DNA of 34,148 bases from Dysgonamonadaceae bacterium (GTDB taxonomy: Bacteria > Bacteroidota > Bacteroidia > Bacteroidales > Azobacteroidaceae), in contig JAISWH010000127.1 of assembly GCA_031271125.1 (NCBI GenBank), positions 1 to 34,148 of the forward strand, read 5' to 3'. Below are positions 4,453 to 33,459 of this stretch, one piece after another (the first letter of the stretch is position 1; every line of letters begins with the position of its first letter). The notes beneath the pieces were generated by a model. That model saw nothing but the letters and a program-made list of their open reading frames with translations, was not told the origin of the DNA and did no database searches. A program made the translations under genes and the position numbers.

Positions 4453-5007
4453 ATGAAATATATTGAAACAGAAATACCGGGTCTATGGATTATAGAGCCT
4501 GAACTTTTTGTAGACGCCCGCGGCTATTTCATGGAAACTTATAAAAAAGAATCTTTTGAGCGCCAAATCGCCCCCATCCATTTTATTCAGGATAATGAAT
4601 CCAAATCTTCTTACAGGGTTTTTCGCGGACTGCATTATCAGGAAGGCGATACCGCTCAGGCAAAATTAGTCAGGGTGATTGACGGAAAGGTATGGGATGT
4701 TGCGGTGGACGTCCGCAAAGATTCCCCTACTTTTGGGAAATATTACGCAGTAGAATTATCGGCCGAAAACAAAAGGCAATTTTTTATTCCGAGAGGTTTT
4801 GCACACGGTTTCCTCGTTTTGAGCGAAACGGCTGTTTTTTCTTACAAAGTAGATAATCACTATTCCCCTTCCACCGAAAGAACGTTGAATTGTTTCGATC
4901 CGGACATTGCCATTCAATTCCCGATCGATAAATCGCTACTGAAACTCTCTGAAAAAGATAAGTTCGGAAAATCCTTGCTGGAAATTGGTTACCCCTCAGC
5001 CCTCTGA
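4453..5007 (+). CDS. rfbC: dTDP-4-dehydrorhamnose 3,5-epimerase
   Basis: DARGYFMETYKKESF, QDNESKSSYRVFRGLHYQ, PRGFAHGFLVLSE. Confidence 0.95.
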   Translation: MKYIETEIPGLWIIEPELFVDARGYFMETYKKESFERQIAPIHFIQDNESKSSYRVFRGLHYQEGDTAQAKLVRVIDGKVWDVAVDVRKDSPTFGKYYAVELSAENKRQFFIPRGFAHGFLVLSETAVFSYKVDNHYSPSTERTLNCFDPDIAIQFPIDKSLLKLSEKDKFGKSLLEIGYPSAL

Positions 5008-5083
5008 AAGGGGAGTTTGGGGGCAGCGAGATTGAATCTTTTGCTGCGGCAAAGTCCCCTTCAGGGGATTGAGTGGTTTAATT
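4989..5083 (+). repeat. Palindromic interspersed element, copy 1
   Basis: TTACCCCTCAGCCCTCTGAAAGGGGAG...GCTGCGGCA...CCCCTTCAGGGG...GGTTTAATTA; aligns with the copies at 30534 and 33371. Confidence 0.85.
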
Positions 5084-5116: not shown

Positions 5117-5977
5117 ATGAAAGGAATTATCTTAGCCGGCGGAAGCGCCACCCGCCTCTACCCTTTGTCTAAATCCATATCCAAACAAATCATGCCGGTG
5201 TATGACAAACCGATGATTTATTACCCTTTGTCGGCTTTAATACTGGCCGGAATCAGGGAAATACTAATTATTTCCACGCCCCGCGACTTACCCATGTTTA
5301 AGGAATTACTCGGGACGGGAGAAAACTGGGGTATGCGGTTCGATTACATCATTCAGGAGAAGCCCAACGGATTGGCTCAGGCTTTTGTACTGGGCGAAAA
5401 ATTTATCGGCGACCAACCGGCCTGTCTGATTTTGGGTGACAATATTTTTTACGGGCAAGGTTTCAGCAGTATTCTCGCCAAAGCCAAAGACATAACAGAC
5501 AATGCCTGTATCTTCGGCTATTCGGTGAAAGACCCCCGTGCATACGGCGTAGTGGAATTTGACGCCTTGGGAAAAGTCATTTCCATCGAAGAAAAACCCG
5601 AAAAACCCAAGTCAAGTTACGCCATTCCCGGATTATATTTTTACGACAATTCGGTAGTTGCACGCGCAAAAGCCTTAAAACCTTCGGCGCGCGGAGAATA
5701 CGAAATCACCGATTTGAACCGGACTTATTTAGACGAAGGAAAATTAAAAGTGGAAATTTTCGGACGGGGTTTTGCCTGGCTGGATACCGGCAATAGCGAC
5801 AGCCTGCTGGAGGCTTCCAATTTTGTGGCGACAATTCAAAAACGGCAAGGCTTTTATGTTTCCTGCATCGAAGAAGTTGCTTGGAGGCAAGGTTGGATTG
5901 ACAATAACCAATTGGAAAAATTGGGAAAAGACTTAAATAAAACCGATTATGGAAAATATATTCTTTCTTTAATTTAG
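5117..5977 (+). CDS. rfbA: Glucose-1-phosphate thymidylyltransferase
   Basis: [39 protein letters not shown]; start moved to ATG 5117, since the ORF-track start at 5069 lies in repeat copy 1. Confidence 0.96.
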
Positions 5978-28574: not shown

Positions 28575-28596
28575 AATAATTTAATTATAAATTACG

Positions 28597-28657
28597 AATT
28601 ACAAATCACGAATTACGATTGTTTTCTTATTTGATTCGTAATTCGTAATTTGTAATT
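28597..28657. repeat. Inverted repeat, 22-bp arms, 17-nt spacer, between mce and mmdA
   Basis: AATTACAAATCACGAATTACGA ... TCGTAATTCGTAATTTGTAATT, one mismatch. Confidence 0.85.
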
Positions 28658-28659
28658 GA

Positions 28660-29058
28660 TTATTGACATAATTCCGTTAATACGCTACATGTAGATTTCG
28701 GATGTAGAAAGGCAATATTCAGACCTTCCGCACCTTTGCGAGGCGCTTTATCAATTAACTGAATACCTTTCGATCCGGCTTCCGCCAAAGCGGTTGCAAC
28801 ATCAGGCACGGCGAAAGCGATGTGATGTATCCCTTCTCCTTTCTTTTCAATAAACTTTGCGATAGTAGAATCTTCGGAAGTAGGTTCGAGAAGTTCGATT
28901 TTTGTTTGTCCTACTTTGAAAAAGGCAGTTTTTACTTTTTGGTCGGTTACTTCTTCGATGTTGTAACATTCAAGACCCAATACGTTTTCATAATAAGGAA
29001 GGCAGTCAGCTATGCTTTTTACTGCGATCCCTATGTGCTCTATATGTGAAATGTCCAT
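28660..29058 (-). CDS. mce: Methylmalonyl-CoA epimerase
   Basis: IEHIGIAVKSIADCLPYYENVLGLE, GEGIHHIAFAVPDV, LHPKSTCSVLTELCQ. Confidence 0.94.
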   Translation of the reverse strand: MDISHIEHIGIAVKSIADCLPYYENVLGLECYNIEEVTDQKVKTAFFKVGQTKIELLEPTSEDSTIAKFIEKKGEGIHHIAFAVPDVATALAEAGSKGIQLIDKAPRKGAEGLNIAFLHPKSTCSVLTELCQ

Positions 29059-30511: not shown

Positions 30512-30533
30512 TTGTTTTGAAAAAAATAACAAA

Positions 30534-30628
30534 TTAACCCCCTTGCCCCCTAAAGGGGAAGTTGGGATAGTGAGTATAAATGTGTAGCTACGGCATCCTC
30601 CCTTCAGGGGGTTAGGGGGTAATTATTA
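30534..30628 (+). repeat. Palindromic interspersed element, copy 2, in the alaS leader
   Basis: TTAACCCCCTTGCCCCCTAAAGGGGAAGTTGGG...GCTACGGCATCCTCCCTTCAGGGGGTTAGGGGGTAATTATTA. Confidence 0.9.
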
Positions 30629-30642
30629 AATAATTTTTACAG

Positions 30643-33363
30643 ATGAAAGCAGAAAAATTGCAACTCAGCGCAAGCCGGATTCGTCAGTCTTTTAAGGATT
30701 TTTTTGAAAGTAAAAATCATAAAATAGTCCCGTCGGCTCCAATGGTTATCAAAGACGATCCGACTTTGATGTTCACCAATGCCGGCATGAACCAGTTTAA
30801 AGACATTATACTGGGCAATGTTCCCATCAAATATTCCCGCGCGGCCGATTCACAAAAGTGCCTGCGTGTCAGCGGGAAACACAACGATTTGGAAGAAGTC
30901 GGTCACGATACTTACCACCACACCATGTTTGAAATGCTGGGCAATTGGTCGTTCGGCGATTATTTCAAAAAAGAGGCCATCGAATATGCCTGGGAATACC
31001 TGACCGAAGTATTGCAATTGGATAAAAACCGTTTATATGTGACCGTTTTTGAAGGAAGTCCTTCGGAAAATTTGAGCCGCGACGACGAAGCCGTCGCTTA
31101 TTGGGAAAAATATTTGCCGGAAAACAGGATTATCAACGGCAGTAAAAAAGATAATTTTTGGGAAATGGGCGACACCGGCCCCTGCGGCCCCTGTTCCGAG
31201 ATTCACATTGACATCCGTCCCGACGAGGAAAGAGCTAAAACGGACGGTTTAACTTTAGTCAATCGCAACCACCCACAGGTAATCGAAATCTGGAATCTGG
31301 TTTTCATGCAATTCAACCGCAAAGCCGACGGTTCGCTCGAAAGTTTGCCCAACAAAGTTATTGATACCGGCATGGGATTTGAACGCTTGTGCATGGCTGT
31401 ACAAGGAAAAACTTCCAACTACGATACCGATGTCTTTCAACCGTTGATTGCCGAAATCGGACGAATTACCGGTCGTCGTTACGGCGACAATCCCCAATCG
31501 GATGTGGCTATGCGCGTTATTGCCGACCATATCCGCACCATTGCTTTTTCTATTACCGACGGACAGTTGCCTTCCAATGCTAAGGCCGGCTATGTGATTC
31601 GCCGGATTTTGCGCCGCGCCGTCCGTTATGGTTATACTTTCCTTGAACAAAAACAGGCTTTCATGTACCGCCTGATTCCTGCGCTGATCGATTCGATGGG
31701 TGATGCTTATCAGGAATTGATTGATCAGGAAATATTAATTGGAAAGGTTGTCAAAGAAGAAGAAGAATCTTTCTTGCGGACTTTGGAAAACGGAATCAAA
31801 TTGCTTGATAAAACAATTCAGGAAGCGAAAACTGCCGGGACAAACCGCATTGCCGGCGCCGGCGCTTTCGTGTTGTACGACACTTACGGATTTCCGCTTG
31901 ACTTGACCGAACTCATTCTGAGAGAGCATAAAATGGAACTCGACAAGGAAGGTTTTGACGTCGAAATGCAAAAGCAAAAAGAACGGGCAAGAAACGCCGC
32001 CGCCGTCGAAACCGACGATTGGGTGAACATCCGGGAGGGTGAACAGGAGTTTGTCGGTTATGACAAAACTTCGACAGAGGCAAAAATTTTGCGTTATCGC
32101 AAAGTAAAACAAAAAAACGCTGAGTTTTATCAGATTGTTTTCGACCGGACGCCTTTCTATGCCGAAATGGGGGGGCAGGTAGGCGATAGCGGCTTGTTCA
32201 GACTCTGCTCGGCGAAGGCTACTGCTTTCGCCGAAGATAAAAGCAAGGCTGTATCCCTGCAAAACAAAAACCTCGACGACAGAGCCTATGCCGAGCAGGG
32301 GATAGAAATTTTCGATACGAAACGGGAAAATAATTTGGCGGTGCATCTCACGCAACGGTTACCGGATAATCCCGAAGATGAATTTATCCTCGAAGTAAAC
32401 ATTCAAAAACGCCGCGCTACGGAATGTAACCACACGGCGACACACTTGTTGCACGAAGCGCTACGGAATGTTTTGGGAAAACATGTCGAACAAAAAGGCT
32501 CATTTGTTTCGCCCGATGTACTCCGTTTTGACTTTTCGCATTTTCAGAAATTGACGGATGAAGAAATTCGCCAAATAGAAAAACAAGTAACGGCTAAAAT
32601 TCGCGAAGATATTATTTTGAACGAATCGCGTCATGTTCCGGTTGCCGAAGCAAAAAAAATGGGAGCGATGGCTTTGTTCGGCGAAAAATACGGCGAAGAT
32701 GTACGGGTTGTCCGTTTCGGTTCGTCGATAGAATTGTGCGGAGGGACGCATATCGCTTCGACGGGACGGATAGGTACGTTCAGGATTATCAGCGAAAGTT
32801 CGATTGCGGCGGGCGTCCGTCGTATCGAAGCCATTTCGGGCGAGGCATGCGAAAATTACCTGTATTTGCAACAAGATATAATTCGTGATTTGCGCGGGTT
32901 ATTACTTAATAATACGGATTTGCAGCAAGCCGTCAGAAAATTCATCGAAGAAAATGCCGGTTTAAAAAAGCAAGTCGAAGAGTTTATGAGAGAAAGGACG
33001 CAAAGATTGAAACAATTGATTATTGACAAGAAAGAAATTAAGAATGAAATTAATTTGTTTGTAATCAAAGGTTTATATCCTGCGGAAATTATTAAAGACA
33101 TTGCTTTCCAATTGCGGGGCGAGTTTCCTGAAAAAATGTGTTTTGCCGGCGCCACATCTTTTGAATCGAAACCTGCGCTGACGCTGATGATCAGCGACGA
33201 TTTGGCGAAAGGCGGATTGAATGCTTCACAAATTGTCCGTGAAGCTGCAAAACACATTAAAGGCGGCGGCGGCGGACAGGCGCATTTTGCTACGGCCGGG
33301 GGAAAAGACCCCGACGGCTTGCAACGGGCTGTGGAGGAAATTATTGCTCAAGTAGTTGGTTAA
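30643..33363 (+). CDS. alaS: Alanyl-tRNA synthetase
   Basis: [44 protein letters not shown]-type motif ([16 protein letters not shown]), [32 protein letters not shown]. Confidence 0.98.
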
Positions 33364-33370
33364 ATGATTA

Positions 33371-33459
33371 TCACACATCCCATTAAAGGGGAGTGGGGCG
33401 GCGAGTATGAATATACTGCTACGGCAATCCCCCCTTTAGGGGGTCGGGGGGTAGTTAAA
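33371..33459 (+). repeat. Palindromic interspersed element, copy 3, between alaS and hisS
   Basis: ...CCCATTAAAGGGGAGTGGGGCGGCGAGTATGAATATACTGCTACGGCAATCCCCCCTTTAGGGGGTCGGGGGGTAGTTA; left end degenerate. Confidence 0.88.

Follow-up and report, generated by a model that had tools for sequence, protein, structure and literature searches.

Rickettsia palindromic elements (RPEs) lie inside genes and are open throughout. REP repeats are reported within 20 bp of the 3′ ends of genes, where a GTAG end of the repeat often provides the TAG stop (PMC3733652). Two MITEs are described as overlapping gene ends in a related manner. In enterobacteria, a RU-1 copy replaces the stop codon of the amidase ECA3499 and extends the protein (PMC2759123), and in Coxiella burnetii a single case is reported in which QMITE2 replaced the stop of EnhC and extended the protein (PMC5896051). 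Y1 (REP-associated) transposases of subclass 2.6 are mostly from Bacteroidetes, are flanked by atypical secondary structures, and have dispersed hairpin copies (PMC6006769).

We examined a repeat of this general kind in the window – the whole 34,148-nt stretch of contig JAISWH010000127.1 that was analysed. Like REP repeats (the GTAG and CGTC super-families), BIMEs and REPINs, it is built from small GC-rich palindromes, often in inverted pairs, with many intergenic copies near gene 3′ ends. In keeping with the definition of REPs and REPINs, we found short, high-copy palindromes that are mainly intergenic, with two inverted palindromes to an element. Inspection nevertheless revealed neither a GTAG nor a CGTC tag at the hairpin feet; the consensus instead has CCAG before the left hairpin and AAT or AAAG before the right one. 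Unlike in REP repeats, the first hairpin usually contributes a TAA or TGA stop, and a gene’s stop codon falls within roughly half of the copies that match well. The element is also short, non-coding and bounded by terminal inverted repeats, as MITEs are, and it resembles RU-1 and QMITE1/2 in being a short inverted-repeat element that overlaps gene 3′ ends. It differs from them in sequence, and in that the replaced ends are numerous, ortholog-checked and mostly carry the same short (Y)PPAP tail. As with RPEs, palindromic repeats become parts of proteins, but the reading frame here usually closes within six codons of entering the element, which is located at gene ends, and this sets it apart from that class. 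The family is new but the kind of element is known: gene ends supplied by REP or MITE copies are already in the literature, and the share of copies at gene ends is unusually high here.

The copy at the junction of two operon genes, rfbC and rfbA, is organized as follows.

4453–5007, + strand: rfbC, dTDP-4-dehydrorhamnose 3,5-epimerase, 184 aa, starting at ATG 4453 (Pfam PF00908, E = 1.9e-66, residues 5–175)
~4989–5083, + strand: palindromic element copy 1, 95 nt, core ~4992–5077, with TTA / TTAA flanks
5000–5014, + strand: left small hairpin, CCCTCTGAAAGGGGA in copy 1, consensus CCCCCTAAAGGGGG (alignment inspection, pair counts)
5005–5007, + strand: rfbC stop TGA, within the element’s left hairpin (consensus there CCCCCTAAAGGGGG)
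5055–5068, + strand: right small hairpin, TCCCCTTCAGGGGA (inspection, pair counts)
5117–5977, + strand: rfbA, nucleotidyl transferase, the next operon gene (Pfam PF00483, E = 3.1e-74)

Positions 4989–5007 (TTACCCCTCAGCCCTCTGA) lie in the rfbC frame. The final rfbC codons, GGT TAC CCC TCA GCC CTC TGA, continue into this segment, and the RfbC C-terminus reads KSLLEIGYPSAL before the TGA at 5005–5007. Reading the sequence thus confirmed the original prediction that the left end of the element is translated in frame as the last RfbC residues (GYPSAL) and that the stop falls inside the element; the element-derived part comprises the last five residues (YPSAL) and the TGA. The element had also been said to fill the rfbC–rfbA gap, and copy 1 does occupy most of the 109 nt between the end of the stop (5007) and the rfbA ATG (5117).

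A further claim was that the element had inserted into, or replaced, the rfbC 3′ end. We therefore read the rfbC ends and downstream DNA of relatives that lack the element, in which the empty state is visible. Where no strong inverted repeats are present at the junction, the rfbC stop and the rfbA start mostly lie −4 to +4 nt apart, and up to 35 nt – the exception being L051, which has a 68-nt gap with merely a weak repeat. The rfbC of G018, the closest (91% identical), ends in KPLKELF; its stop aligns with the junction Tyr codon and is directly followed by the rfbA ATG. The corresponding ends are KSLKEI in G004, KSLKEITIND in G024 and SLKEVYQESLNF in G022. An element-free relative with the same C-terminal residues and stop was sought, and none of the same-genus rfbC genes read ended in GYPSAL. 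On this comparison of sequences the claim is supported and largely right: an element inserted at the rfbC 3′ end, with the last codons and the stop replaced, though the exact insertion nucleotide cannot be fixed because the relatives differ at that place.

The element is ~90 bp long, with terminal inverted repeats and no coding capacity. Its family consensus, approximately (T)TA CCCCCCAGCCCCCTAAAGGGGGAG TTTGGGCAGYGAGTATGAATATTCTGCTACGGCAAT CCCCCCTTTAGGGGGTTAGGGGG TA(A), has a short stem at its centre with a small GC-rich hairpin on either side, the two in inverted orientation, between ends that are inverted and TTA..TAA-flanked. Both of the inverted-orientation palindromes (left CCCCCTAAAGGGGG, right CCCCCTTTAGGGGG) are paired in >90% of cells by pair counts. 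As single-stranded DNA, copy 1 folds at −23.9 kcal/mol, versus −12.2 (sd 2.2) for shuffles (z = −5.4). When a single long hairpin was set against two local hairpins, the counts leaned towards the local arrangement, but largely because of a single column pair that a subfamily has in common, and for that reason we claim no RNA function. An Rfam search of the window returned a single match, a tRNA, with the element above no gathering score.

The main reading frames of the element meet a stop within it, and few copies span an ORF. The left end, TAC CCC CCA GCC CCC TAA, reads Y-P-P-A-P-stop, which explains why (Y)PPAP is the usual element-derived tail. The right end reads inward as CCC CTA ACC CCC TAA. 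Stops come soon in two of the three frames at the right end, while the left end has one early stop and one later. A scan of ORFs around all copies identified left-end tails of NYPPTP, DYPPAP, NHPPAP, LLYPPAP and KKHPPAL and right-end tails of KKPLTP, YNPLAP and TNPLTP, each followed by a stop.

We observed two kinds of variant. A minority of copies (L006, L009, L010, L038 and L127 flanks) share a longer end, (GATACGAAATAAATAACATG)TAATTACCCC, and may represent an earlier, full-length form whose inverted ends were longer. In L032 (~1486), L040 (~2963), L033 (~2768) and also L163, the right hairpin is broken by a short repeat, AAACAACGTTCGGCGTTAGCCAATT, which also occurs after a kdtA-like stop in relative G024.

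Copy 1 is not a chance palindrome, since two further copies are present in the window and ~40 across the assembly (2.55 Mb; BLAST with copy 2, best non-self match E = 7e-17), few of them wholly within genes. We searched the consensus against 61 genomes and found many copies in the window’s own genome and in both G022 and G004 (dozens more in the latter two) and shorter or more diverged matches in G002, G012, G028 and a few others. The same search detected no copies in G018 and G024, the closest relatives by rfbC. Such a patchy distribution is as expected of a mobile element. The same genus includes Candidatus Azobacteroides pseudotrichonymphae (G003; 100% plasmid match), a termite-gut symbiont, and the window therefore comes from a relative of that symbiont. 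The element was not found in the plasmid and phage collections searched, and two exact-pattern scans of 84,980 genomes, with patterns that were too strict, gave no match. In a genome from another family of the order, one short contig carries three partial end copies (L084; G046:C16).

The other two copies in the window lie on either side of alaS.

~30531–30624, + strand: element copy 2, in the alaS 5′ untranslated stretch (element-free site in relative G004)
~33364–33456, + strand: element copy 3, starting ~6 nt past the alaS stop (relatives G022 and G018 without the element there)

At the copy 2 site, G004 has the empty sequence AATAACAACTTAACATAG, whereas the window has AATAACAAATTAA, the element and then AATTATTAAAT. 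The absence of the element from this site in G004, and from the copy 3 site in G022 and G018, indicates that both copies inserted in the window’s own lineage. Within alaS itself, positions 32185–32310 (residues ~519–552) encode ~25–30 residues more than nearly all relatives have, and their alignments break here. An inverted repeat, CTGCTCGGC..GCCGAGCAG, lies in the extra DNA, which may represent an in-frame insertion of another palindromic element.

The C-terminal parts of 17 further genes were sought and read in four relatives. Judged by these orthologs, all 17 have lost their own ends to element copies. The ortholog stops lie near the junction, at a median distance of ≤6 codons in 15 of 18 genes (rfbC included) and ≤3 codons in half. 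No recognisable element-derived tail was found in orthologs from the four relatives, L137 being ambiguous. By Pfam, the affected genes belong to ordinary conserved families and include carbamoyltransferase, TruB, KH domain (Era-type), MarC, M24 peptidase, MFS, LOG-type, reductase and others. In L042, a single copy terminates two convergent genes, which end in LAPKSPEGDFAVAK and FYALAP; in G004 the same pair ends in KRILESLK and LEQFI, with overlapping gene ends. The pair is probably a carbamoyltransferase-like and a UDP-diacylglucosamine-hydrolase-like gene. One G024 ortholog, ending EQFYPPTP.., resembled an old copy, but its DNA was too different to say.

We counted positions for the 34 own copies scoring at least 55 bits. 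A gene’s stop codon is held by 18 of these (two of them by ≤3 nt), another eight begin ≤15 nt after a stop, and one lies 16–60 nt away; gene starts lie within 15 nt of three copies. Outside gene ends, 8/16 copies lie 0–15 nt past a stop, a zone that makes up 8.2% of intergenic bases – with gene ends called by ORF heuristics and this null drawn from the window only.

These comparisons establish that the family exists, that its copies inserted in particular lineages, that C-termini were replaced and that copies cluster at gene 3′ ends. We think it very probable that the element is a dispersed, non-coding, non-autonomous mobile palindrome that inserted at the rfbC–rfbA junction, where an in-element stop now ends RfbC, and that the clustering at gene ends is the product of selection. 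The insertion would postdate the split from the nearest sampled relatives. It would have displaced the last rfbC codons and stop, leaving the left end of the element to terminate the protein, at a stop that lies five to six codons inside it. The proposed mode of movement is transposition of a non-autonomous REP- or MITE-like element by trans-acting enzymes. An element moved in this way fits the observed anatomy: GC-rich hairpins in inverted orientation, a stem at the centre, a lack of coding capacity, copies that are dispersed and diverged, and insertions specific to a lineage. Insertions within genes or promoters would have been purged, while those at stop codons would be nearly harmless because most tolerated frames soon meet a stop in the element’s ends, at the cost of a few residues.

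Alternatively, target choice could steer the element to stop codons, as with TA-targeting into TAA or TAG, rather than copies being scattered and then filtered. Consistent with this idea, most copies have (T)TA/CCCC..GGGG/TA(A) boundaries, with (T)TA flanking both sides and conservation dropping to background just beyond the TTA at either end; the stops of the pyrB ortholog and of the closest relative’s rfbC align exactly with the TA-C codon; and the clustering around the ancestral stop is tight, to within a few codons. Against it, the junction reading frames are mixed (roughly 9:6:4), several insertions lie 2–10 codons ahead of the ancestral stop, and the empty sites reveal no single consistent target-site duplication, a clean TA duplication being absent from most. 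We consider steering unlikely. A strict TA-in-stop-codon rule was not adopted, as junction frames and empty sites are mixed.

A second alternative, which we regard as quite unlikely, is that the hairpin is useful at gene ends as a transcript-stabilising or terminating 3′ structure and that copies were selected for their position. Stable hairpins do lie within or directly after the last codons, and published REP repeats, which cluster ≤20 bp from 3′ ends, are thought to act in RNA (PMC3733652). However, the sequence shown has no T-run after the hairpin, copies occur in both orientations, and there is only weak covariation over and above the inverted repeat, most of it from one column pair. That the rfbC ending is ancestral and was lost in the relatives, with the element merely an unrelated neighbour, is scarcely credible: no point favours it, GYPSAL is present in no same-genus ortholog read, and its codons read as the element’s own left end, found in dozens of other places.

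For a non-autonomous element inserted at gene ends and filtered by selection, we looked for a source of transposase. No transposase gene bordered by element ends was found in searches limited to PF01797 and PF13358, and the own assembly has no match to either, which is weak evidence at 83% completeness. In contrast to REP repeats, no linked REP-type transposase was found for the element in this 83%-complete assembly; in contrast to Y1 subclass 2.6 systems, none was detected in the assembly. No link to Y1/RAYT emerged in relatives, where the ten Y1 loci examined had no element copy within ~1.5 kb, nor did one to IS630-type DDE_3 (PF13358), with no copy within ~1.5 kb of the relatives’ loci examined. 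By analogy, a subclass 2.6 Y1 transposase is a possible mobiliser of such a family.

The family is a case, genome-wide and checked against orthologs, in which a mobile palindrome has rewritten the C-terminal ends of many conserved genes, a convergent pair among them. It also calls for caution, as C-terminal residues in such genomes can derive from mobile elements. Its filled and empty sites form a ready set for the question of stop-codon choice versus tolerance.

Other palindromes were also observed at gene ends. In other species, the rfbC–rfbA gap holds different repeats at the same junction (L046, L050, L054, L060 and L064), among them long palindromes in L054 and L060 (27-nt arms) and in L064. 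The L060 palindrome, TGTCATTGCGGGCTTGACCCGCAATCC, also supplies an rfbC end (..VSLRA, then stop). Unrelated palindromes in this genus seem to settle at gene ends quite generally. It is conceivable, if distinctly improbable, that a common mechanism brings several unrelated mobile palindromes of the genus to stop codons, and that the ends of this family evolved early stops that allow repeated, low-cost takeover of gene ends. In the window, an unrelated AT-rich palindrome at 28583–28664 (AATTACGAATTACAAATCACGAATTACGA, arms 86–92% complementary) reaches the 3′ end of a glyoxalase-like gene (28660–29058).
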